Shown piece after piece: positions 894 through 13,829 of a DNA stretch of 21,883 bases. The notes under the pieces are model-generated. The model ran no database searches, was not told the origin of the DNA, and saw only the letters and a list, made by a program, of their open reading frames with translations. This stretch comes from a virus, in IMG/VR virus record IMGVR_UViG_3300048589_000249, positions 1-21,883 of that record; one strand, 5' to 3'. The position numbers and the translations under genes were made by a program. Position 1 is the stretch's first letter; every line of letters starts with the position of its first letter.

Positions 894-1769
894 ATGCAAG
901 ACCTTCAAAAAAACTATGTGCTCGCAGCGGAAGTGCTGGAAGATGCTATGGATGAAATCAAGGCACTGCTCAGCGACCCTAATTCGCAATTGATCTATGT
1001 TGGCATCCATGCAGCCCTGCAGAAACAAGCCAACCGCCTGCACTTCCTGGGAGGTAGCACCCCTAAGCACGGGATAAGTGACCAGGAGTATAAACCCATT
1101 ACGGAGTTTATGGGTGAGAAAATTGAGCACCGCAAGGAAGTAAACTTTGAGGACTTGGAACCTGGTGAGGCAGACCGTCTGCAGTATGTAGAAAAGGTTA
1201 ACAGCCTGTATGCCGAACTGCCAACGCTTTCACTGCGTGGTGTGCTGCATAGCATGACCATCACGGATGATATTCTGGTATTGCGTGGAGTTGCAAAGAA
1301 AGCCGGCATGCAGGACTTTGAGGATGCAGTAATTACGGAGGAATACCTGGAAAAAGTGGTAAAAGCCATTAATGAGCGCAATGCGTTTGAAGCCCAGGAG
1401 AAATCCATCCATGCACAACTGGAAGCGAATAAGCAGAAAGCCGGTGAGGCGCCTGTTATTACCGGTGACAGTACCACTGAGGATGAAGATGACTATTATG
1501 ATGAAGAAATGATTGACGTGGTAGTCACACAGCAGATTCTTGACATGAACCCGGTGATGGCAGAGCAGGGTATTAAACTGGGTGATATTATCCAGGTAAC
1601 TAAAGAGGGGGGGCATTTTTTGCACGACGAATTTATTTTCCCGGACGGGCTGGACGATATCAAGCCGAATGAAGCAGCAAGCGCTGAACAGGCAGCTGCA
1701 GACAAAGTAGGTAACGAACCTAAGTCCACTAAAAACCGTTCCAGCCGTGCAAATAAAAATCAACAATAA
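894..1769 (+). CDS. Hypothetical phage protein, first gene of structural operon
   Basis: This 291-aa protein starts at the first ATG after the AT-rich leader. The first 60 residues are helical (MQDLQKNYVLAAEVLEDAMD). There is a central alpha/beta part, then a strongly acidic stretch with TTEDEDDYYDEEMID near residues 193-207. The C-terminal tail is low-complexity, rich in Ala, Glu, Lys, Ser and Asn, and probably disordered. I see no enzyme motif or membrane segment. It opens the tail operon and its 3' end overlaps the next gene by 23 bases, so translational coupling to the chaperone-like gene is likely. A G7 run at 1607-1613 lies inside the frame and does not disrupt it. The family is not recognised; a tail or scaffold-type structural role is only inferred from position. 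Confidence 0.6.
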   Translation: MQDLQKNYVLAAEVLEDAMDEIKALLSDPNSQLIYVGIHAALQKQANRLHFLGGSTPKHGISDQEYKPITEFMGEKIEHRKEVNFEDLEPGEADRLQYVEKVNSLYAELPTLSLRGVLHSMTITDDILVLRGVAKKAGMQDFEDAVITEEYLEKVVKAINERNAFEAQEKSIHAQLEANKQKAGEAPVITGDSTTEDEDDYYDEEMIDVVVTQQILDMNPVMAEQGIKLGDIIQVTKEGGHFLHDEFIFPDGLDDIKPNEAASAEQAAADKVGNEPKSTKNRSSRANKNQQ

Positions 1770-2460
1770 GGTTTTCACTTTCCCCAGCAGTTTATCTGAA
1801 ATGACACTGGGGCAACGAATAGCATTTCAGCAAGAGCATGGTAACCTTTTGGATGCCATGCTCACCTCTATTTTGGAGATGCCGGAAGGACCTGAGAAAC
1901 AACTGGAAGTGATGCACTTTCAGTTTGAAAAGATGTTCCGCACGTTCAGTTTTTTTTCCGGCTTCACCGTAGAAGAATTAAAGGCCAGTGAGTTCATTGA
2001 GGAAATTGCATCAATCTATTACGCCAACGTGGCCCAGGTCATGGAGCATGAGGCACAGATTGAACTGCAGCCGTCCTACCAGTTTATGGGGGAGGAATGG
2101 GTTATTCATCCACCGGAATTAAAGCAAGGTTCAGAAATGACCTTCGGAGAATTTATTGATGCCAAACAGATCATTAAAAACCTGATTGATCTGGGCGCCA
2201 GTAAGTGGGAGCAATTGGTATGCCTGGCAGCCATCTATTTCCGGAAGAAAGGGGAGCCGTACCAGGCCAGCTTTATGTATGAAGGCAGTGAGCGCCAGGA
2301 ATTGATGAAACAATTGCCTATGGATATAGCCCTGGCTGTAGGTTTTTTTTTGAGCAGTTCTGTGAATTTATATCTCAACACTTTGCAGTTTTCTTCCCGA
2401 GCCGTGTCCGATCAGATGGCCGTTTCAGTGCAGCCCACTATGAGCGCTATGGCTGGATAA
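1747..2460 (+). CDS. Tail-assembly-chaperone-like protein, unshifted product
   Basis: The zero-frame product is 237 aa. Translation probably starts at GTG 1747, giving an N-terminal beta strand VQIKINNKVFTFPSS; the only later nearby ATG is at 1801 (MTLGQR) and would remove that strand. The middle has LEMPEGPEKQ, a helical region, and the segment EMTFGEFIDAKQIIKNLIDLG. The frame meets a T9 tract at 2343-2351 (Gly199-Phe-Phe-Leu) and then carries about 36 further residues of serine- and valine-rich sequence to a stop at 2458-2460. It lies upstream of the tape measure gene and carries a -1 frameshift, as tail assembly chaperones of the lambda G/GT type do. That analogy is from context, not from recognised sequence similarity. 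The gene is separated from TMP by seven genes, which is unusual for G/GT. Confidence 0.6.
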   Translation: MQIKINNKVFTFPSSLSEMTLGQRIAFQQEHGNLLDAMLTSILEMPEGPEKQLEVMHFQFEKMFRTFSFFSGFTVEELKASEFIEEIASIYYANVAQVMEHEAQIELQPSYQFMGEEWVIHPPELKQGSEMTFGEFIDAKQIIKNLIDLGASKWEQLVCLAAIYFRKKGEPYQASFMYEGSERQELMKQLPMDIALAVGFFLSSSVNLYLNTLQFSSRAVSDQMAVSVQPTMSAMAG

Positions 2461-2648
2461 ATTTTCTGAAAAGCATAGCAAAAACCAAAGTGTTTGATAT
2501 CCCTGGCAGCAATATGAACAGTATTGATTGCGCCCGTGCAGCCAGCGCCTTTGATGTACTGCTGTATGCCAGTGAGGAAAAAGAGTTAAACGAGGCCCAG
2601 GCATTGGACCAGGAAGCCCAGCTTAATAAACAAAAACGAAAAAAATGA
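1747..2648 (+). CDS. -1 frameshift product of the chaperone-like gene (300 aa)
   Basis: If the ribosome slips back one base in the T9 tract, the first 201 codons join a -1 frame of 99 codons that ends at TGA 2646-2648. The extension reads FEQFCEFISQHFAVFFPS, then passes through ERYGWINFLKSIAKTKVFDI to a charged tail ending NKQKRKK. It looks strongly protein-like, has no ATG early enough to explain it as a separate gene, and fills an otherwise empty 184-base gap. Its stop overlaps the ATG of the next gene as ATGA (2645-2648), the same coupling seen at other junctions here. The product is therefore real either by programmed -1 frameshifting or because one T is missing from the sequence. The G/GT-like role is inferred. 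Confidence 0.6.
2343..2352 (+). promoter_or_regulatory. Candidate -1 slippery site (T9-G)
   Basis: Nine T followed by G are read in the zero frame as GGT TTT TTT TTG. Both T-TTT-TTT and T-TTT-TTG satisfy the X-XXY-YYZ slippery heptamer rule. Slipping back one base leads into TTT GAG CAG in the -1 frame. I do not see a strong stem-loop in the first 15 bases downstream nor a clear upstream Shine-Dalgarno-type stimulator, so efficiency cannot be judged by eye. Confidence 0.55.
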
Positions 2649-3106
2649 ACGCACAATCCCCGAAGCCAGTTATGAACCTGGCAAAAGACATGCAGGACCA
2701 ACTGGTCACTGAACTCAGTAAAGTACCTTTTACGCATGAGCGCCTGACGCCCGGATGGATGGCAATGGCAAAGAGTGCTTTGCGCAAAAAATCACCGCTT
2801 GCCCTGGGTATTCGTATTGCAGACTACAAGGCTATTCTGGAATTGGAAGCCGGTGACCCGGTGAGCATGATGCAGTATAGCATCCTAAACAACAATCTGG
2901 AAAACTGCAGCATGCTGGACCTTTCCCTGCAGCTGGAAGCGTACAGTGATTTGATGGAGGACTGTGAGGTTATGAGCGAAGCATGGAATGCTGAAACGCT
3001 TGGCCTGCGTAAACAGGTGGAAGCGGATATTCTGGCCAGGTATGAAAATACCGTGGGTAAGCCAGTCGGCGGCATGAAGGCAGTACCTAAAAAAAGTGAT
3101 GCCTAA
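2645..3106 (+). CDS. Hypothetical phage protein, 153 aa
   Basis: The start ATG overlaps the stop of the frameshifted upstream product as ATGA, and the stop (TAA, ending 3106) overlaps the next ATG as TAATG. The protein is mostly helical: MNLAKDMQDQLVTEL near the N-terminus, a basic patch SALRKKS, then long amphipathic helices. It ends in a lysine-rich tail (VPKKSDA). There are no Cys-pair, catalytic or membrane features. I do not recognise the family. Its place between the chaperone-like gene and the tail/neck candidates suggests a small structural or assembly factor, with no more specific evidence. Confidence 0.6.
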   Translation: MNAQSPKPVMNLAKDMQDQLVTELSKVPFTHERLTPGWMAMAKSALRKKSPLALGIRIADYKAILELEAGDPVSMMQYSILNNNLENCSMLDLSLQLEAYSDLMEDCEVMSEAWNAETLGLRKQVEADILARYENTVGKPVGGMKAVPKKSDA

Positions 3107-4718: not shown

Positions 4719-6253
4719 TGGCAATTACCAATGTTTTAGGGCCTGACCCACAAGCGATAAAAAGCGCCTACCGGCCTATCATTTTTGATGTGACTGCACC
4801 AGGTACGCCAAAGGTGGTGTATTGTGACCTGTACTTCAATGGCCGGTATTATAAAACCCTCAGCAAAACTCAGTACCATTCAAAAAATGCACTGGGTAGT
4901 TATTCTTACTGGAAGTTTGATATTGCTGATGCCTGCCAGGAGTTCCTGCAGAAAGTGCTGGCACCCATAGACAGCAACCTGGTGCAGAATGCTGATAAAG
5001 CATTCGTTTGGGTGTATTGCCGATTCAGGGACAGCCAGCTTGATGCAGATGGTTTAATCATTCCGGAGGGACCGGTACCCGTGCAGGGCACAATGGAAGT
5101 GGAGCCGGTTGCTGGTGGAGGATATCAAAGCACCGATTTTTTTGTGCTCAATGTGGCATTGAAACACCATCACGAGCCAGAATTGGATGATCATTTGAGC
5201 CGGTATATGGCCAGCCCATTTGCAGCCAACTGCTATCCACTGAGCCGTAGGCCTAAGCGCTACCATATTTCCCTGGGGAGTAGTGATTTTTACCCGGTTA
5301 TTGATACAGAAAACCAGCGGTGCAGCCCTAACCTTCGCCTGAATTATAAGTATTTCGGGCAAAGCACTTTCAGTCAGGCAAACAGCGGCGCCAGTTATGG
5401 CTTTATCAATTCTACCGTAACCTCCTTATCCGTGGTACAGATTGGTGAGATTATAAGCCTGAACTGGCAATATACTGGCAATCCCAGCAGCTTCAACGTG
5501 CAGGTGGATAGTGGAGTGGTACAGAATACACCAATACCCAGCATAGAGCTATCAGGGCTATCCGTTGGCATACATTCCGTAAGAATTACGCCTATATCTG
5601 GCTGTGCTCAGGGTACCCAGTTTACTGCTGATATTACCGTTGATGTAGCTGCAGAATTGTGCTTTTTTGAAGTGTACAGCGTGCTGATTACGCAGACCGG
5701 TGCAGATACCATCCAGGTGGGGGCTTTCCTTAATAGCACTCCACCCAGTTTTGTGTATAGTTTAGACGGTGGTCCCAGTGTACCCGTGGCAGGCATACCT
5801 TTCACCATAAGTGGCATCACAGCTGGTGGCCATACGTTGAAGTTGACACCTGTTTGTGACGATGATCGTTTTGGTGCAGCGGCCACAACCAGCTTCACCC
5901 AGGCGCCAGCGCCTAGCATCACACAAACCAGCAACACGAGCACCGGAGTAGGTGGTACCCGTACACAAGTTTTTTTGATTGGGCCAAACGTGAACCCTGG
6001 CAACCGTTATACAGTCGGTGTGTACAGCTATGTTATTACCGTCACAGCCGTGGCCGGAGATACGCCTAGCACCATTGCAACAAAATTGAGGGATGCAGTG
6101 AACGGTACTACATTGGCGCAATGGAACTCATTTGGAGTAGCACCAGCGCCTGGCACCAATGGTTATCCACCCACTGCAACGGCCAGCGGAGCGTATTTAT
6201 CCCTCAAATTAAATCACACGAATTCATTTTCTGCATCTGCATTTATATCCTAA
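4718..6253 (+). CDS. Tail protein with tandem Ig-like domains
   Basis: This 511-aa protein has a conserved-looking N-terminal domain of about 230 residues (VVYCDLYFNGRYYKTLSK; FVWVYCRFRDSQLDADG) and then two tandem Ig/FN3-like beta domains. The first, around residues 240-310, has the pattern IELSGLSVGIHSVRITPISGC. The second, around 320-390, has FTISGITAGGHTLKLTPVC, so the two clearly share an SGLxxGxHxxxxTPxxxC pattern. A third beta-rich module (about 400-511) contains YSYVITVTAVAGDTPSTIAT. Ig-like domains in tail proteins commonly bind cell-surface glycans weakly. It sits between the neck candidate and the tail-tip genes; the role as a decorated tail or baseplate protein is inferred. Confidence 0.55.
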   Translation: MAITNVLGPDPQAIKSAYRPIIFDVTAPGTPKVVYCDLYFNGRYYKTLSKTQYHSKNALGSYSYWKFDIADACQEFLQKVLAPIDSNLVQNADKAFVWVYCRFRDSQLDADGLIIPEGPVPVQGTMEVEPVAGGGYQSTDFFVLNVALKHHHEPELDDHLSRYMASPFAANCYPLSRRPKRYHISLGSSDFYPVIDTENQRCSPNLRLNYKYFGQSTFSQANSGASYGFINSTVTSLSVVQIGEIISLNWQYTGNPSSFNVQVDSGVVQNTPIPSIELSGLSVGIHSVRITPISGCAQGTQFTADITVDVAAELCFFEVYSVLITQTGADTIQVGAFLNSTPPSFVYSLDGGPSVPVAGIPFTISGITAGGHTLKLTPVCDDDRFGAAATTSFTQAPAPSITQTSNTSTGVGGTRTQVFLIGPNVNPGNRYTVGVYSYVITVTAVAGDTPSTIATKLRDAVNGTTLAQWNSFGVAPAPGTNGYPPTATASGAYLSLKLNHTNSFSASAFIS

Positions 6254-6255
6254 AC

Positions 6256-6828
6256 ATGGCAGTTTTAAACTACATACCAAACGGTCCGGCCAATCTGCAA
6301 AGCATTTTCCCCTCAGTGGATTTTACAGAATTGGCTGAGTATTTTATTGAGTTAATGGCAACAGATGGCACCACAATGGTCGCCAGGAGTACGGTGAACG
6401 TGCTGCACAAGCGGTGCTCAGATACCGTGCGGATCCACTTTGTCAATGGTTGTGGTACAATGGATGCCATTGACTTTGATATACAGCAGCTGCAGCACCA
6501 GGTAAAGAGTGAAGAATTTGAAACCCCTGGCACCCATCCGCATGATTATACCCGTCACGGCATTCAGCGCTTTAATATCAAGGCCAATGATGTGTATGAG
6601 GGCGTGAACATTCTTTATGGTGAGGAACAGCAGGAATGGCTGGATGAACTCTTTGATAGCCCTATGGCCTGGATAGAACAAAGCAGCCCCTTCACGAATG
6701 AGCGCTTTTATCTACCAATTGTCATACTTGATAATGAGCGCCAGAAAATAAAGCCCAATGGCAGGTACCTGTATGAGGTCAAAATACAGTTTAAACTTTC
6801 TAATGAAGTAACCACAATCCGGAACTAA
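6256..6828 (+). CDS. Putative tail/baseplate protein, 190 aa
   Basis: The open frame extends back to 6121 inside the previous gene, but I start at ATG 6256, two bases after that gene's stop (MAVLNYIPNGPANLQSIFPS). The product is beta-rich, with a long strand-turn stretch in the middle (SDTVRIHFVNGCGTMDAIDF) and a C-terminal part ending YLYEVKIQFKLSNEVTTIRN. No enzyme motif is visible. Its stop overlaps the next start as TAATG. Being small, beta-rich and just before a 772-aa tail-tip candidate, it fits a distal-tail or baseplate adaptor, but I cannot assign a family. Confidence 0.5.
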   Translation: MAVLNYIPNGPANLQSIFPSVDFTELAEYFIELMATDGTTMVARSTVNVLHKRCSDTVRIHFVNGCGTMDAIDFDIQQLQHQVKSEEFETPGTHPHDYTRHGIQRFNIKANDVYEGVNILYGEEQQEWLDELFDSPMAWIEQSSPFTNERFYLPIVILDNERQKIKPNGRYLYEVKIQFKLSNEVTTIRN

Positions 6829-9146
6829 TGAGCCAAAAAAGCAAATATGTTCGCATAACCATAGACGGCCAGGAAATTGATATTGAGCAGACGGATGATC
6901 TGCCAATTGCAATCAGTTACCAGGTGGAGGACGTTAAGAACTTCCAGGAAAAAAGAAGCGCCAGCAGCCTGGATATCACCGTGCCTGCAACTACACTCAA
7001 CAGCAAATTGAGCAATGGGCTGCACAATCCGGACGTGCTGGACATGACGGAGGATAAGCGCTATTCAAAGCCTGTTCCTGCAGTAATTGAAGCCGGTGGG
7101 TATGAATTGCTGGTGGGCAAAGCATTCCGGAAGCGTGCCCGGCACCGCCGTAACCCCATAAGCTATGACTTTGACCTCTATGGTGATAATGCGGATTGGA
7201 TTATTTCTTTGCGGGAAACTACGCTGTTTGATGCACTGCAGCATGTCAATTTTTTGTTTACCAAAGAGGGCATCATTGACAGCTGGGCATTTGATGGCCG
7301 GGACCCTCAATTGCCGTATGTTTTTGCTCCTTTCCGGCATAGCCAAACTATGGATGAAGGGTATAGCAATTATGTGATGGACCCACCGCCAAAAGTGCTG
7401 GATTGGAGCATGTCACCACATTATATGCGGCCATCCCTTTCCATTTATTGGATATTGTACTGGGGCTTTAAGCTGGCAGGGTACAAAATAGAAAGCGACT
7501 TTTTTGAAACAGATTATTTCCGGCGTGCTGTGACGCCGTGGGTGTATGGTAGTTTTCTGTACAGTGATGGCACCCGGTTGGATAACCTGGATTTTCTGGC
7601 CAAAGCAGACAGGGCCGTGGTATTTGAGGATGATTTTGCAGAGCAATACATTGATTGTGAGGTAAGCAATGACAGCACGAATGGCGCCTTTGATAATAAT
7701 GGTTCCTATGTGTATGATGCAGTCAACCTGGCTATGAAGTGGACCTATTTGCCAGCGTACGACTATGGGAACCTGGATGCAACCTTTCACTTTCAGGCCA
7801 TTGTTGACACGACCGTGGCAGCGAATAGCCGGAGTGAATTACATATTCATTGGTTTAAAAACGGGGTTCAGTTTCGTGAAACGGAACTGGTTAATCTAAA
7901 TGCGCCTGTTATTGGGCGCCGTGATCAGGCCGGCACGGTAGAAGATTTTGCCAGCATAGCCGTGGTCCCGGGTGATGTTATCACCGCAAAGGTCCAGCTG
8001 TATATGTTCGCCAGCAGCCTGGGACGGGCCAATTTCTCTATTCAGGTGGTGGCATTTGAACTGGATTATTTTCGCATACCCCTGGGCGGGACCATTGACT
8101 TTAAAAACTACAATGGCCTGAAGAAACACAAGTTTCTGGACCTGCTGCGTGGTGTGACGGATGCCTTCAATTTAGAGTTTGGTACAGACAGTATTTCAAA
8201 AACCGTTCGCATAGAGCCTGCGCATGCGTATAGCTTAACCGGCAATTTGCCAGACCGGACGGGCTACTGGAATGGCCAGACCGTGGACTGGACATATAAG
8301 CAGGATTTAAGCAAGGACAGCGTGATTGAGTACCTGGATGAAGGAGAAAGGGAGTTGATTTTTTGCTTCAAAGAAGATAACCAGGATGGGCTTATCAAGA
8401 TGGTGCAGGACCGGTACAGTTTACGCCTGGCCAGTTCAAAGTACGTGCTTCCAGAAAGATACCAGGCTGGGAAAAAAGAATATGCAAACCGGTTTTTTAG
8501 TCCGACTATGCACTATCTGGTGCGCCAGTGGGAGCCAGCAGGTGAACCACCGTACATGGTAGCCATTGTCCCGGAAAACCGATCAGATACCAGTGGCCGT
8601 GAAGCGGATAACACCATACAGCCAAAGATGTGCTGGTATAAAGGCATTCAGCCCTATGGATGGGTATTTGATCAGGAAAAGCGTACAGACTTCCCCATGA
8701 TGTTTGCCGTCAATTACAACCTGGGCGGTGAAAATGACCCGGTGTTTAGTTACTGTGATGAAGCCATCCCAAACAGCACCGGAGGCTTCAATGTGGGCCG
8801 TGGCCTGCTGAAACGTTTTTTCTGGCAGCGCCTGGCCAATATGCGAAGGGGTATGATTTATAACACCTCACTCAAATTGAACAATTTTGACGTTTGCAAC
8901 CAGCGGCACCGGGAGTATAAGCTACTGGGTGGCCATAAGTGGGAACTCATTGCCATCAATAGCTATAAGCCATTAATGGAACAGTCAACGGACTGCGTGC
9001 TGCGTTATGTAGAGCCGTTGAGTATTGAAGACAAGGAAGCAACCTTCCCGAGTGATACCAGCGTGCTGGCAGATACATTGACCAGCAACAGCTTTGACCA
9101 AAAGTACAAGCCCCTTATTTGTTTAACCACTGATATACCTGCGTAA
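6828..9146 (+). CDS. Large putative tail-tip/baseplate protein, 772 aa
   Basis: The start is the ATG of a TAATG junction, and the stop makes another TAATG with the tape measure start. The N-terminus is beta-rich (KYVRITIDGQEIDIEQTDDL). The protein is rich in aromatic residues (Trp, Tyr, Phe) throughout, which is common in phage tail-tip and receptor-proximal proteins. The centre has repeated beta segments (SELHIHWFKNGVQFRETEL) with no Gly-rich or collagen-like repeats. The C-terminal part has FFWQRLANMRRGMIYNTSL. I see no peptidase, lysozyme or lyase motif. Placed directly before the tape measure rather than after it, it could be a distal tail or hub protein; the assignment is tentative. Confidence 0.5.
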   Translation: MSQKSKYVRITIDGQEIDIEQTDDLPIAISYQVEDVKNFQEKRSASSLDITVPATTLNSKLSNGLHNPDVLDMTEDKRYSKPVPAVIEAGGYELLVGKAFRKRARHRRNPISYDFDLYGDNADWIISLRETTLFDALQHVNFLFTKEGIIDSWAFDGRDPQLPYVFAPFRHSQTMDEGYSNYVMDPPPKVLDWSMSPHYMRPSLSIYWILYWGFKLAGYKIESDFFETDYFRRAVTPWVYGSFLYSDGTRLDNLDFLAKADRAVVFEDDFAEQYIDCEVSNDSTNGAFDNNGSYVYDAVNLAMKWTYLPAYDYGNLDATFHFQAIVDTTVAANSRSELHIHWFKNGVQFRETELVNLNAPVIGRRDQAGTVEDFASIAVVPGDVITAKVQLYMFASSLGRANFSIQVVAFELDYFRIPLGGTIDFKNYNGLKKHKFLDLLRGVTDAFNLEFGTDSISKTVRIEPAHAYSLTGNLPDRTGYWNGQTVDWTYKQDLSKDSVIEYLDEGERELIFCFKEDNQDGLIKMVQDRYSLRLASSKYVLPERYQAGKKEYANRFFSPTMHYLVRQWEPAGEPPYMVAIVPENRSDTSGREADNTIQPKMCWYKGIQPYGWVFDQEKRTDFPMMFAVNYNLGGENDPVFSYCDEAIPNSTGGFNVGRGLLKRFFWQRLANMRRGMIYNTSLKLNNFDVCNQRHREYKLLGGHKWELIAINSYKPLMEQSTDCVLRYVEPLSIEDKEATFPSDTSVLADTLTSNSFDQKYKPLICLTTDIPA

Positions 9147-11704
9147 TGGCACAATCACAACTGACAAAAATTTATGAACTGCGGTCCATTGGCTATGAGG
9201 AACTGCAAGGCCAGTTAACCAATATCAATACGGCATTTTCTGAGATCAGGAAAAATAAAGAAGCCCTGAATAAGATGGCCGGCAAAGGTAGCCGTACCAG
9301 TGAGGAACTGGAAAAGGAGCGCCAGGCTACGGAAAAGCTGCGAGTGGAGGAACAGGAATTGCGTAACCAGCGCTTGAAAATGCAGAATGAGGCCAAAGCA
9401 TGGGCACTGCTGCAGCAGCAGGAAAAGCAGCGCCTGCAGGAACAAGCCAGGTTTGCAAAAGTAGCTGCAGGCAGTTACAATGAATTGTACTTGCAGTACC
9501 GTGAATTGTACAAACTGGTGAAGGCTGCACCAGCTGGTGGCCAGGTGACTTTCCTGGGCAATACCCTGCAGTATGACCAGGCCATTAAAAAGCTGCAGGA
9601 GTTGGCAGCAGCAGAGCAAAATTTCCGGCGCCAGTTTCAGCGTGATGGCCTGCTGGTGGGAGAATATACCAGCGGTATCGTGCAGGCATTTAAGTCAATG
9701 GGGCTGGATGATCTGATAGGTGGCCAGATAACCAAAGCAAAAACCAGGTTGACAGACCTCAATTCAGAGTTTAATAAGCTGCAGCAGGAACTTTCTGAAA
9801 CCAAAGTGGCCGGTGATGGTAGCCTGCAGGCTATTGAACGCATGCTCATTGAAAACCGTAAGGAAGCCATTGCACTCACCCAGCAGGTAGGCAAATTAGA
9901 AGCAGAATTCAGGGGCACTGGTGATGTGGGTAATCAAATTACGGCCAGCCTGGCAGCTGGCTTCAAAGATGCTAAAAACCAGCTGAGTAATTTCGTGCTG
10001 GGGTATGTAGGTTTTCAGGCAGCCCTGGGCGGTGTACAGCGTGCCATTGACCTAAATGCAGAATTGTCCGATAAGTTTGTGGACCTGCAGCGGATTCTGG
10101 GTATTACGGAGGAAGCGACCGCCAAAGTGGTGAACAGCTTAAAGCAGATTGATTCCCGTACCTCATTGCAAGGGCTCACGGATATTGCCATCATAGCAGC
10201 GAAGGCCGGCGTGGCAGCGGAAGATATTGACGGGGTGACGGCTGCTATTGATCAGCTGGTACTGGTGGCCGGTAAGGAACTGGGTGACGTAGAAAAATCA
10301 ACGGAGAGCCTGGTAAAACTGGTGAACATCTTTTCGGAAGATGGCAAAGTAACAGGTGATGCCGTTCGTTCAATAGGTAACGGACTGGTGGAACTGGCCA
10401 ATGCTGGCGTGGCATCCGGTGGATTCCTGATTGATTTCTCCCAGCGTTTGGCAGGTGTGGCCGGGACGGCAAACATTAGCCTGGATTCTGTGCTGGGACT
10501 GGCTGCAGGATTTGAAGAACTGGGCCAATCCAGTGAAGTTTCCAGCGGCGCCGTGGTACAGGTATTAAGTAAGATCGGCCAGGACGTTCCAAAGTATGCA
10601 AAGCTGGCCGGCAAGTCCGTGGAGGAATTTACGCAAACCTTGCGAACAGCGCCTCAGGAAGCACTTTTGCAGCTGGCTGAGAACCTGGGCGGTAATGGTG
10701 GTGCCTTTGATGAACTGAGTAAAAACTTTGCAGATGCTGAGGCCCGTGGCATCCGGGTAATTCAAACCCTGGGTGTTTTGGGTGCGAATGCAGATACTTT
10801 CCGGGCAAAGATCAAACTGGCAGGCGGTGCCCTGGCAGATACCAATGCGATCGTTGACGGCGCCAACCAGAAACAGCAGACGTTTGGAGCAACCGTGGAT
10901 AAGATCAGGAAACAGTTTGAACTGCTGGGTAATAACAAAGCCGTGCAGGCGCTGATGCTGGCCGTAGCTGGTTCCATATCCTTGCTGATTGCCAACCTGC
11001 CTACATTGCTGGTATTATTGGGGGCACTCGCCGTGAATTGGGCTATCCAAAATGCAAACCTGCTTTTACTCAATGCTTCCATGATCGGGTATAACCTGCT
11101 CATTGCCCGTAACTACGTGCTGATGGGTTTGCTTACTCCTTTACTGGTAGCCCAAAAAATTGCATTGTTTCTGCTGAATGGAGCCTATACACTGGTGACG
11201 GCTGCAGCCAGTCGTTTCAATATTGTTATCGGTCGGACACCACTGGGGCTAATCTTAACAGGTATCACCTTGCTCACTGCTGCTACGGTGGCCTATGGTA
11301 ACTCATTAAATGCAGCCAGCAACCGACTGAGGGAACAAAACAGGCAGGCCCGGATAATGAATGAACTGCAGAATGAAGCCAGAAAATCCGTCACAGAAAC
11401 CATTGCAAAGGAGCAAACTTACCTCAGCATCATCCGGGATAATACCCTGGCGCTGGGTACCCGTCAACGGGCGCTGAATGAATTAATTGCACTTAACCCA
11501 GAATACCTGAAAGGCCTGACCCTGGAAAACATTGAAATGGATAAAGGGCGTGCTATTCTGGAAAAGTACAATGAGGCACTGTATGCGAAAGCCCTGGCTG
11601 AAGCTGCTGCAGCGAGATCATCCCGGGAGTTCCAAAAGCTGGTAAGCCTGCAGACACTTCAACAGGATGTGCAGTTCGCATTAAAAACCGGCAGAAACCA
11701 CTGA
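9146..11704 (+). CDS. Tape measure protein, N-terminal part (852 aa)
   Basis: A long coiled-coil N-terminus (residues about 10-150, rich in Glu, Gln, Lys, Leu) leads to a TP901-type tape measure core. The core includes RILGITEEATAKVVNSLK, GLTDIAIIAAKAGVAAED and the motif SIGNGLVELANAGVASGG at about residues 310-470. Several hydrophobic segments follow around residues 605-720 (VLLGALAVNWAI, LLTPLLVAQKIALFLL, ILTGITLLTAAT), as usual for proteins that line the tail and insert into the host envelope. The frame stops at 11702-11704, immediately after QFALKTGRNH, where the coiled-coil continuation is found in the +1 frame. It sets tail length and guides assembly. Confidence 0.85.
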   Translation: MAQSQLTKIYELRSIGYEELQGQLTNINTAFSEIRKNKEALNKMAGKGSRTSEELEKERQATEKLRVEEQELRNQRLKMQNEAKAWALLQQQEKQRLQEQARFAKVAAGSYNELYLQYRELYKLVKAAPAGGQVTFLGNTLQYDQAIKKLQELAAAEQNFRRQFQRDGLLVGEYTSGIVQAFKSMGLDDLIGGQITKAKTRLTDLNSEFNKLQQELSETKVAGDGSLQAIERMLIENRKEAIALTQQVGKLEAEFRGTGDVGNQITASLAAGFKDAKNQLSNFVLGYVGFQAALGGVQRAIDLNAELSDKFVDLQRILGITEEATAKVVNSLKQIDSRTSLQGLTDIAIIAAKAGVAAEDIDGVTAAIDQLVLVAGKELGDVEKSTESLVKLVNIFSEDGKVTGDAVRSIGNGLVELANAGVASGGFLIDFSQRLAGVAGTANISLDSVLGLAAGFEELGQSSEVSSGAVVQVLSKIGQDVPKYAKLAGKSVEEFTQTLRTAPQEALLQLAENLGGNGGAFDELSKNFADAEARGIRVIQTLGVLGANADTFRAKIKLAGGALADTNAIVDGANQKQQTFGATVDKIRKQFELLGNNKAVQALMLAVAGSISLLIANLPTLLVLLGALAVNWAIQNANLLLLNASMIGYNLLIARNYVLMGLLTPLLVAQKIALFLLNGAYTLVTAAASRFNIVIGRTPLGLILTGITLLTAATVAYGNSLNAASNRLREQNRQARIMNELQNEARKSVTETIAKEQTYLSIIRDNTLALGTRQRALNELIALNPEYLKGLTLENIEMDKGRAILEKYNEALYAKALAEAAAARSSREFQKLVSLQTLQQDVQFALKTGRNH

Positions 11705-13829
11705 CACCCCATTCCTTAACAGTTTATTCCTGGCAGCGGCCAAAGGTATAGGTGCCAGCCTGGACAATGTTAGCCAGCTGAGGGACTTGGATAAGATACT
11801 GCAGGCAAACATCAATGAGCAGCAGCAGATTGTCAATGATGTAGAGAAAAACAAACTGCTTATTGACAAAGCGCTGGGTAAGCCTACAACTGATAAAAAA
11901 ACCGGTGGCGGTAGAGTGGTGACGGATGAAGAAAAGAAAACGGGCAAGCGCCGGGCTGATCGGCTGGACGTTGATATACAAAACCAGTTTAAGGACATTG
12001 ATGCTTTGCGGGATGAAGCCCTGGCCAAAGAAAGACAGCGCCGGTTAAAGGATGAAATTGACGAGGAAACCTACCTGCGTAATATTCTGGTGATCAACCA
12101 GCAGGCGATCGATAAAAAGCTGGCCCTGCTGAAAGCCCGGAACAGTGAGGAACGTAAACAGTATGCAGAGTTGAGCCTTAATAGGATTGAGCAAGAGCAG
12201 GAAACCAATGAGGCCATTTTCAAGCTGCGTGAGCGTGCTGCCAGACAGCTGCTGGATGCAGAAACCTCCCAGGCAGAATCATCTGCGACTGTAAGCCTGC
12301 AGGATCCTAATCTTAGCAGCCAGGACCGTGCTGGGATTGAAGTAAGTAAAACGGAAGCCATACTGGCAGCCCAGGTGAAGTTCAATGAAACGATTGACCA
12401 GCTGGAAAAAGAGTTCACCCAGATAAGCCGGGAAAATGCTGACAAGCGCAAAGCGGCTATCCTGGCCATTGAAGCTGAACTGCGTGCTGATCGAATTGCC
12501 CTGGCTACCAGCCAGCTGCAGGATATTGACCGGGCTGAAAAGCGCCAGCTGACGGAGTACGAGATTTATTTCAGTAAAATACGCCAGGCCATTCTGGAAA
12601 ATGATGAATTGACGGAGGAACAGCGGAAGTTTAAGCTGGATGAAGTCAACCGTACTGAAACCCGTACCATACTTTCCGCTGAGTTGGCAAAGCTGAACAT
12701 TGAAGTAGCCAAAAAGAAACAGCTGCTGCAGCAAGGCTTAATCAGTCAGGATGAATACCTGGATGCTGTAAAGCGCCAGCAGCAAAAAGCGGAGGAACTG
12801 GCTGCAGATTATACACTGCCAGATGCACAGCGTCCGGAGATCAATGGCGTACAGGGTGCCCTGCAGATTGGAGTAAGAAAATTATCCGGCTTTAAAGCTG
12901 GCAGCAATGAGGATAAGATGCTGGCAGATGCCATCACAGCGTCATACAACCTGGCTACTGATGCAATGAACGGTTATTTTGATGCAGAGCGTTCACGGAT
13001 AGAGGATAGTTTGAGCTTGGCCATTGAACGGCTGGATATTGAGCAGGAACAGGTGATGAACCTAGCCAGCAGTAAAGCTGAACAGGAAGCTATTGAAAAG
13101 CAGTATGCAGCAAAGAAGCGGAAGCTGGAACAGGAAGCGTTTGAGAAAACAAAGGAAACCAAACGGAAGGAGGCAAAGATTGCTTTCTTGATGGAACTGG
13201 CCAATATCTGGTCCAGCGTGTGGTCCATTGGTAACCCTATTGTAGCTGCCATCATGGGGGCCGTGCTTTCAGGCCTGGCCATTGCCCGGTATGCCAATAC
13301 GGTGAGCCAGATCAATCAGCAAAAATTTGAATTCGGTGGTAAGCCAGGTGATGTGCCTACTCAGGGTGGTAAATTCGGTGGCCAACCTCATAGCAAGGGT
13401 GGCACCCCTTTCACCTTCAAAGGCCAGTCATACGAGGCTGAGGTAGATGAATTAGCGGTTATCCGTACCCGTAATGCACCGAAAAACCGGACGTATAATA
13501 TCAGCGGCACTCAAAGCCAGATAGCCAGCAAATTAAATGAACTGGGTGGTGGCGTGGCATTTGACCGTGGCGCCAGGCTGAACAAATTTGAGTATGGTGG
13601 CCAGGTAGGCGAGCGTCTGCAGGCACCGGTATTCGTTCCATCTGCAGTATCACTGAGTGATGCAGCAGGCAACCAGACAGCTGAGATATTGGACACCATG
13701 CGTGAGCAGGCAATGGCTATTCAAGCGGTATCTAACCAGGTTCGCACCCTGCAGGTAGTGCAGCGCACTTCCACCGTAACGGAAGCCCAGGACAAAGAAG
13801 TTAAGCAAATTAAAACAGGCACTTTATGA
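11685..13829 (+). CDS. Tape measure protein, C-terminal part in +1 frame
   Basis: The +1 frame opens at 11685, overlapping the end of the N-terminal frame, and continues as KPAETTDTPFLNSLFLAAAK and on through a long coiled coil to 13829. It has no in-frame ATG until 12918, several hundred codons in, so it cannot be an independent gene with an ordinary ATG start (a TTG exists at 11787). Near residues corresponding to 13190-13290 there is a hydrophobic segment (SVWSIGNPIVAAIMGAVL), then a glycine-rich C-terminus (KFGGQPHSKGGTPFTF) typical of tape measure ends. A +1 shift within 11685-11702 gives one protein of about 1560 aa. The junction sits at an A5 run (11683-11687). Either a one-base indel, a sequencing error or recoding explains it. 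Its stop overlaps the next start as ATGA. Confidence 0.8.
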   Translation, partial: KPAETTDTPFLNSLFLAAAKGIGASLDNVSQLRDLDKILQANINEQQQIVNDVEKNKLLIDKALGKPTTDKKTGGGRVVTDEEKKTGKRRADRLDVDIQNQFKDIDALRDEALAKERQRRLKDEIDEETYLRNILVINQQAIDKKLALLKARNSEERKQYAELSLNRIEQEQETNEAIFKLRERAARQLLDAETSQAESSATVSLQDPNLSSQDRAGIEVSKTEAILAAQVKFNETIDQLEKEFTQISRENADKRKAAILAIEAELRADRIALATSQLQDIDRAEKRQLTEYEIYFSKIRQAILENDELTEEQRKFKLDEVNRTETRTILSAELAKLNIEVAKKKQLLQQGLISQDEYLDAVKRQQQKAEELAADYTLPDAQRPEINGVQGALQIGVRKLSGFKAGSNEDKMLADAITASYNLATDAMNGYFDAERSRIEDSLSLAIERLDIEQEQVMNLASSKAEQEAIEKQYAAKKRKLEQEAFEKTKETKRKEAKIAFLMELANIWSSVWSIGNPIVAAIMGAVLSGLAIARYANTVSQINQQKFEFGGKPGDVPTQGGKFGGQPHSKGGTPFTFKGQSYEAEVDELAVIRTRNAPKNRTYNISGTQSQIASKLNELGGGVAFDRGARLNKFEYGGQVGERLQAPVFVPSAVSLSDAAGNQTAEILDTMREQAMAIQAVSNQVRTLQVVQRTSTVTEAQDKEVKQIKTGTL

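Follow-up and report, generated by a model that had tools for sequence, protein, structure and literature searches.

A run of nine or ten T's at a probable programmed -1 frame switch in a tail-module gene of two distant phage families

The T9 junction of the window and its homologues

A gene in the tail module of the window, by which we mean the complete IMG/VR virus record of 21,883 bases analyzed here, probably uses a programmed -1 switch at a run of T's to make two products, one short and one long, a reading to which we assign a probability of roughly 0.88. Unshifted expression would end at the zero-frame stop and give a short protein, G, of 237 aa, and a presumably minor share would shift by -1 at the T run to give a long protein, GT, of 300 aa (201 zero-frame codons plus 99). 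Comparison of homologous junctions demonstrates, at the level of sequence, a recoded -1 arrangement with an extension under protein-level constraint, a signal of 9-10 T's, and no consistent internal start; we infer that both products are made, their ratio, their role as tail chaperones, and which enzyme slips. By this comparative evidence the switch is real, and it is old, since it is spread over two distant families, of which family 1 holds the homologues of the window's gene and family 2 its distant relatives.

The original prediction placed the end of the zero frame at 2460 (237 aa) and a 99-codon -1 frame from the T9 tract to a TGA at 2646-2648, with a 300-aa shifted product, and all of these numbers are right. 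It also named a slippery heptamer, T TTT TTG, which is present together with a second one in register, T TTT TTT (Table 1). The tract is flanked by GG at 2341-2342 and G at 2352, and it is the only run of nine or more A's or T's in the window, the next longest being two T8 runs. We note that a T8 run at 1950-1957 lies inside gene G of the window.

Table 1. Coordinates of the G/GT gene, its slip site, its neighbors in the window, and stand-alone G-like genes in relatives
Feature	Location	Position	Strand	Remark
Upstream gene, 291 aa	window	894..1769	+	No family match; same-place ORFs precede the fused GT in L072 and L090 (by position and eye)
G, zero-frame ORF, GTG start, 237 aa; putative short product	window	1747..2460	+	Kept up to T9, variable beyond
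T9 tract, candidate frame-switch signal	window	2343..2351	+	First T is the wobble base of GGT (Gly)
In-register ribosomal heptamer T TTT TTT	window	2343..2349	+	From sequence; in 37/37 family-1 and 69/69 family-2 junctions tabulated
Second in-register heptamer T TTT TTG	window	2346..2352	+	From sequence; the one named in the original prediction
-1 extension (T part of GT), 99 codons plus TGA	window	2349..2648	+	Relatives 33-97% identical; substitution periodicity
Next gene, 153 aa	window	2645..3106	+	ATG overlaps the TGA of the -1 frame (ATGA)
Tape measure protein (5' part)	window	9146..11704	+	PHROG 25337, E 1.4e-41; Pfam PF10145, E 6.4e-12
G-like gene without extension	L042 (fused phage)	7664-8344		
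G-like gene without extension	L050 (fused phage)	7519-8157		
G-like gene without extension	L051 (fused phage)	7874-8497		
G-like gene without extension	L089 (shifted phage)	5881-6651		

Relatives were searched for with each frame separately and then with alignments, in viral contigs and bacterial genomes, and junctions with an identical 210-nt context were merged into one before counting. They came from viral contigs and from a few bacterial genomes (Chitinophaga tropicalis, Taibaiella lutea, Deminuibacter soli, and several Bacteroidota MAGs). The 48 family-1 junctions consist of 44 and of 4 later ones found with the zero-frame profile; the tree uses the 44 and the wobble counts use 37. Loci without a match to the extension profile were left out of the 44, namely family 2 and L068 and L069, whose contigs stop before the junction. 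The extension is present in 6 of 394 Chitinophaga-family genomes, with one new junction among them (L081), and tblastn of either window frame against 50,697 phage records (INPHARED) gave no match at E 0.01.

The homologues strongly support a programmed -1 switch at T9. Among the 48 nonidentical family-1 junctions, 41 are shifted and 7 have the extension in frame, and every one of the 41 (37 in the first set and the 4 later ones) has exactly T9 in one register. The first T of each of the 37 tabulated runs is the third base of a Gly or Ala codon, and the runs end in TTG (36) or TTA (1). Conservation is handed over at the tract, where that of the zero frame stops and that of the -1 frame begins, and in the aligned sets the -1 extension is 33-97% identical to that of the window. 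In ten pairs, the 60 nt past the slip have 33, 27, and 57 substitutions at -1-frame positions 1, 2, and 3, the distribution one would expect if the -1 frame is constrained.

The original prediction had pointed to homologues with the extension simply in frame as evidence that would speak against a switch. Such homologues do exist, as the 7 of 48 just counted, and we read them as natural fusions and not as sequencing error because all 7 lack a run of five or more T's at the junction and because they occupy three separate places in the tree. A homopolymer error of sequencing or assembly in a gene that is truly one frame is an explanation that a T9 tract naturally invites, and a frame is broken at one more place of the window, in the tape measure gene; we give it almost no weight, since the same T9 recurs in all 41 shifted family-1 junctions, including those in the strain assemblies of Chitinophaga tropicalis and Deminuibacter soli, and is carried by two near-identical viral records.

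Separate translation of the -1 ORF from an internal or coupled start is also very improbable. Overlapping ORFs are often coupled, and in 13 of the 37 shifted junctions the stretch from where the -1 frame opens to codon +33 does contain some ATG, GTG, or TTG, but ATG is absent from that interval in 34 of 37 and all three codons are absent in 24 of 37. In the window the first -1-frame ATG is at 2514, within the conserved domain, in line with the earlier statement that the frame has no ATG of its own near its start. Both parts form a single protein in the seven in-frame homologues, and the structural model of one of these is a continuous high-confidence fold. The claim that the extension reaches exactly to the next start codon fared less well: the ATGA overlap with the ATG at 2645-2647 is real in the window, but it is incidental, because it occurs in just 13 of 44 junctions.

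Run length and codon register in two families

Family 2 was first picked up by a weak tblastn match. The G parts of the two families match in a profile comparison (E 3.3e-7, probability 93%); their extension parts, compared alone, give E 0.0066 and a probability of 5.8%, so that homology of the two extensions rests on their position and on a W-G-W region recognized by eye. We kept a sample of 80 from 272 relatives and analyzed the 69 distinct contexts it contained. All 69 junctions are shifted, with T9 in 61 and T10 in 8. The DNA at the junction reads T9-A, and the codons spell Val/Leu/Ile-Phe-Phe-Tyr, Ser-Phe-Phe-Phe-Arg, Ile-Phe-Phe-Phe-Tyr, or Val-Phe-Phe-Leu. The first T of the run occupies codon position 2 in 64 of the 69 and position 3 in the other 5, compared with position 3 throughout family 1. 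PHROG 32199 (unknown function) matches the family-2 zero-frame protein in both of the two proteins scanned (E 1.8e-16 and 5.4e-19) and gave no match to the window's own G at E 0.01. Family 2 was found in 0 of 395 genomes of a Bacteroidota-phylum set, a count that says nothing on the family-2 host.

We also note that in family 2 (L132-L210) the zero frame stays open for 57-69 codons past the T run beside 85-90 codons of the -1 frame, which makes a long dual-coding overlap, and that a TTTAGG after the T run is common to both frames in all 69 junctions.

Across both families, the run is 9-10 T's long at every one of the 110 shifted junctions and occurs in two codon registers, with no T7 or T8 among them. 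When T's are counted before and after the first in-register U_UUU_UUU, all 37 tabulated family-1 junctions give (0,2), and those of family 2 give (1,1) in 61 cases, (0,3) in 5, and (1,2) in 3. The two sides of this U7 trade off, with 0 before accompanied by 2-3 after (42/42) and 1 before by 1-2 after (64/64), for a total of 9-10.

All 37 family-1 junctions counted have T as the wobble base at codon 0, and T fills this position in 215 of 724 upstream Gly/Ala codons of the same genes. On the tree there were at least 7 exchanges of Gly and Ala at codon 0 and 0 changes of the wobble T; on the same tree the comparison wobbles changed at least 21 times (Pro -8) and at least 13 times (position -4). 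A pattern that left the Gly/Ala wobble free and let each Phe be TTT or TTC recovered 19 stretches in viral contigs, every one of them T9 and all in contigs already counted. Where family 2 has Val/Leu/Ile-Phe-Phe-Tyr, a change of the last base in the second Phe codon is silent in both frames. The second Phe codon ends in T in 66 of the 69 family-2 junctions, and the exceptions (L194, L198, and L208) are exactly the three with TTT at codon 0, that is, those in which the run is displaced upstream. The independent events behind these counts are few, with two tree changes for the second Phe wobble and about two register changes over both families.

The 413 other ORFs of 43 representative loci provide a background for long runs. 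A runs of at least nine are depleted there (3 observed against 14.0 expected from synonymous shuffles), and T runs of at least nine number 1 against 1.9 expected, too few to judge. Judged from the lengths of the 110 junction runs and from the wobble counts, the run of nine or more T's at the junction appears to be maintained by selection, which is a feature of genes with transcriptional slippage.

What slips at the run

The favored slip is one in which the host RNA polymerase would add one U at T9, producing a U10 mRNA that would then be translated normally. From sequence patterns we lean slightly toward polymerase slippage, at about an even chance, over the ribosome acting alone, with both together or some other process taking the rest. 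A wider picture, in which slippage of the host polymerase at T9-10, near the length of the RNA:DNA hybrid, would set the short-to-long chaperone ratio in two distant groups of environmental phages, and in which lineages losing the run would have fused the gene, one clade with a separate G-like gene besides, stands in our estimate at just under even odds.

Ribosomal slippage on a heptamer was the mechanism originally proposed. The heptamers are indeed present, and the ribosome is one of two serious candidates for the slip; a run kept strictly at 9-10 T's fits the polymerase too. If the ribosome alone were responsible, tandem tRNA slippage would take place on the overlapping U_UUU_UUU and U_UUU_UUG, as in classical G/GT genes, and we consider this plausible at a level somewhat short of even. 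The phage G/GT pairs known to us use the ribosome. Passages of PMC5009743 and PMC3711429 agree with ribosomal frameshifting in phage G/GT, with precedents in lambda, HK97-type phages, and TP901-1 (PMC5009743, PMC3711429, and PMC4493119, each in part), and a passage of PMC3711429 reports 6-7% frameshifting in two tail-chaperone genes. An in-register U_UUU_UUU occurs in 106/106 tabulated junctions; any T9 run holds one, and a strict U7 ribosomal site is thus also conserved in all of them.

Several observations sit less easily with the ribosome alone. The heptamer is 7 nt long and would be satisfied by T7 or T8, yet the run is at least nine in 110/110 junctions, and either family-1 heptamer taken alone leaves one end T free that is still T in 37/37. 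The remark that the window has no clear stimulatory structure is borne out by folding energies at the 37 shifted family-1 junctions, where the mean MFE z scores of the flanks are -0.10, -0.05, and -0.17 and neither side has a folding signal; at the 7 fused junctions the means are 0.54, -0.83, and -0.61 and the medians 0.71, 0.03, and 0.19. According to a passage of PMC8710568 the anti-Shine-Dalgarno sequence is sequestered in Bacteroidia, although the same source has prfB frameshifting nonetheless persisting in 523 of 726 Bacteroidia genomes. The argument for the polymerase, in turn, turns on 2-3 extra T's, several of which are forced by amino acids. Because a T9 run always holds U_UUU_UUU and because some of the flanking T's are forced in this way, we hold polymerase slippage to no better than the even chance given above and keep the ribosome only a little behind it.

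Shigella mxiE is reportedly one of the cases of transcriptional slippage. Others at 9A or 9T, as given in passages of PMC1088944 and PMC5009743, are Thermus dnaX, the Shigella spa genes, and IS elements. These resemble the present gene in having a run of nine A's or T's under selection and products with and without an extension, and they differ from it in that here the gene is one of phage morphogenesis, has in-register ribosomal heptamers as well, and is known from DNA alone. In a passage of PMC1088944, nine is the commonest length at which selection against A/T runs appears in bacterial genomes, and one in PMC5574713 describes insertions in A/T runs that climb exponentially with run length and puts the length of the RNA:DNA hybrid at nine. 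Within phages, a suggested precedent for such slippage is a poly-A-containing methyltransferase gene of a Campylobacter phage (PMC2853527, in part).

If the run acts through RNA polymerase, the ratio of the putative tail chaperones would be set by transcription and not by the ribosome. We know of no earlier phage tail-chaperone pair with a ratio set by transcription. Conserved frameshifts in tail genes are reportedly the subject of Xu 2004, the primary paper on them. Among the titles and abstract openings listed in our literature search, none describes this T9-10 switch. The natural variants (two registers, T9 versus T10, and fused genes) make up a set on which the two kinds of slippage could be told apart. 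The comparison also brings to attention a gene without a database family and suggests a frame-aware annotation rule for these phages.

Protein fold, tail setting, and fused genes

In its designation as chaperone-like, the original prediction is backed by the position of the gene in the tail module and by its two-product architecture, but not by any Pfam or PHROG match or by a useful PDB fold match. Neither frame of the window's gene matches any family in Pfam or PHROG, and in a PHROG scan of 65 related sequences any one PHROG was matched by at most 3, all of these PHROGs being unnamed. The proteins of the gene gave no match to the sequences of solved structures. The AlphaFold model of a natural fused GT (L090, 65-row alignment) is mainly helical, with a mean pLDDT of 94.8 and a pTM of 0.89, and one helix passes through the junction; the extra 99 residues of GT would be the C-terminal portion of a single unbroken helical fold. 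A fold search of the PDB with this model returned nothing at E 0.001 (best E 1.0), and its best VIA-align match was Skp (Z 4.4, rmsd 6.3 over 59 residues). BFVD gave 16 matches up to E 0.001, the best at 5.0e-8 and none with a function name, and one weak match, at E 1.9, is named tail assembly chaperone.

A weak fold match also led to Flavobacterium phage 6H, in which the likely gene, chosen by its length of 191 aa, has T6 and not T9 and was not counted. We note that its locus (L241, 10048-10927, minus strand) contains the CDS AGN89393 and, after it, 304 nt that carry no annotation but hold a frame of coding appearance. The locus may represent a further two-product gene, with T6-C, no T9, and a -1-frame stop just past the site.

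The tape measure gene, which begins at 9146 on the same strand as G/GT, places the locus in the tail module, although the two are not adjacent and eight ORFs lie between them. The window also encodes a Clp-type head maturation protease, a portal-like protein, and a virion structural protein. Recoded short/long pairs in a tail module are the usual sign of chaperones, and from gene position and two-product architecture we take G and GT to be putative tail-assembly chaperones; on the model of lambda gpG/gpGT, their ratio would have to be fixed. It is unlikely, though well worth considering, that the gene is recoded and serves some other two-form role, for example in the neck: the eight intervening ORFs would fit such a role, as would the lack of a match to any solved chaperone fold and the neck or tail-completion look of the genes directly after G/GT, which is a judgment by eye on genes that have no PHROG name. 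The usual meaning of a recoded pair in a tail module speaks against it, as does L075, in which just two ORFs separate the fused GT from a tape-measure-like protein (its PHROG matches to tape measures begin at E 1.7e-6 and rank after a stronger one to a virion structural protein).

The likeness to lambda gpG/gpGT, HK97, and TP901-1 is one of organization, with a short and a -1-extended protein from one start, a location in the tail module, and an extension without its own start. Passages of PMC5009743 and PMC4493119 describe, for lambda, gpG binding the tape measure and the T part binding the tube protein. We detected no relation in sequence or solved fold to these systems, and the present gene differs from them in the eight ORFs that separate it from the tape measure, in its natural fusions, in the separate G-like gene, and in a slippery signal of 9-10 T's in place of a heptamer such as the GGGAAAG of TP901-1 (PMC4493119, in part). 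The gene thus resembles lambda G/GT in its likely working, and we do not claim homologous membership.

A maximum-likelihood tree of the 44 proteins shows three separate switches between the recoded and the fused gene, each of them required by branches with good support. Because family 2 is shifted at all 69 junctions, the fused genes probably represent the derived state, in which the shift was lost by fusion. Five members make up one fused clade, and in three of these (L042, L050, and L051) the fused gene is followed, after about 1.2-1.6 kb, by a separate G-like gene that is shorter and lacks the extension. No such gene was seen in the other two members, whose contigs end 700 and 1,792 bases past the fused gene; of these, L073 could have shown its first part. 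In a search of whole records, several of them short fragments, 3 of 5 fused phages and 1 of 34 shifted ones (L089) had a second G-like gene. The other two fused lineages gave none in L090 (whole record) or in L075 (5,979 bases downstream). It looks as if the frame switch was replaced by two genes in this one clade.

The tape measure gene of the window is itself split (11704/11787), and we considered and rejected a second programmed shift there: in the near-identical L111 and L112 the gene is one frame of 1581 codons, and a short stretch is missing from the window in the region 11650-11800, by assembly or by natural deletion.
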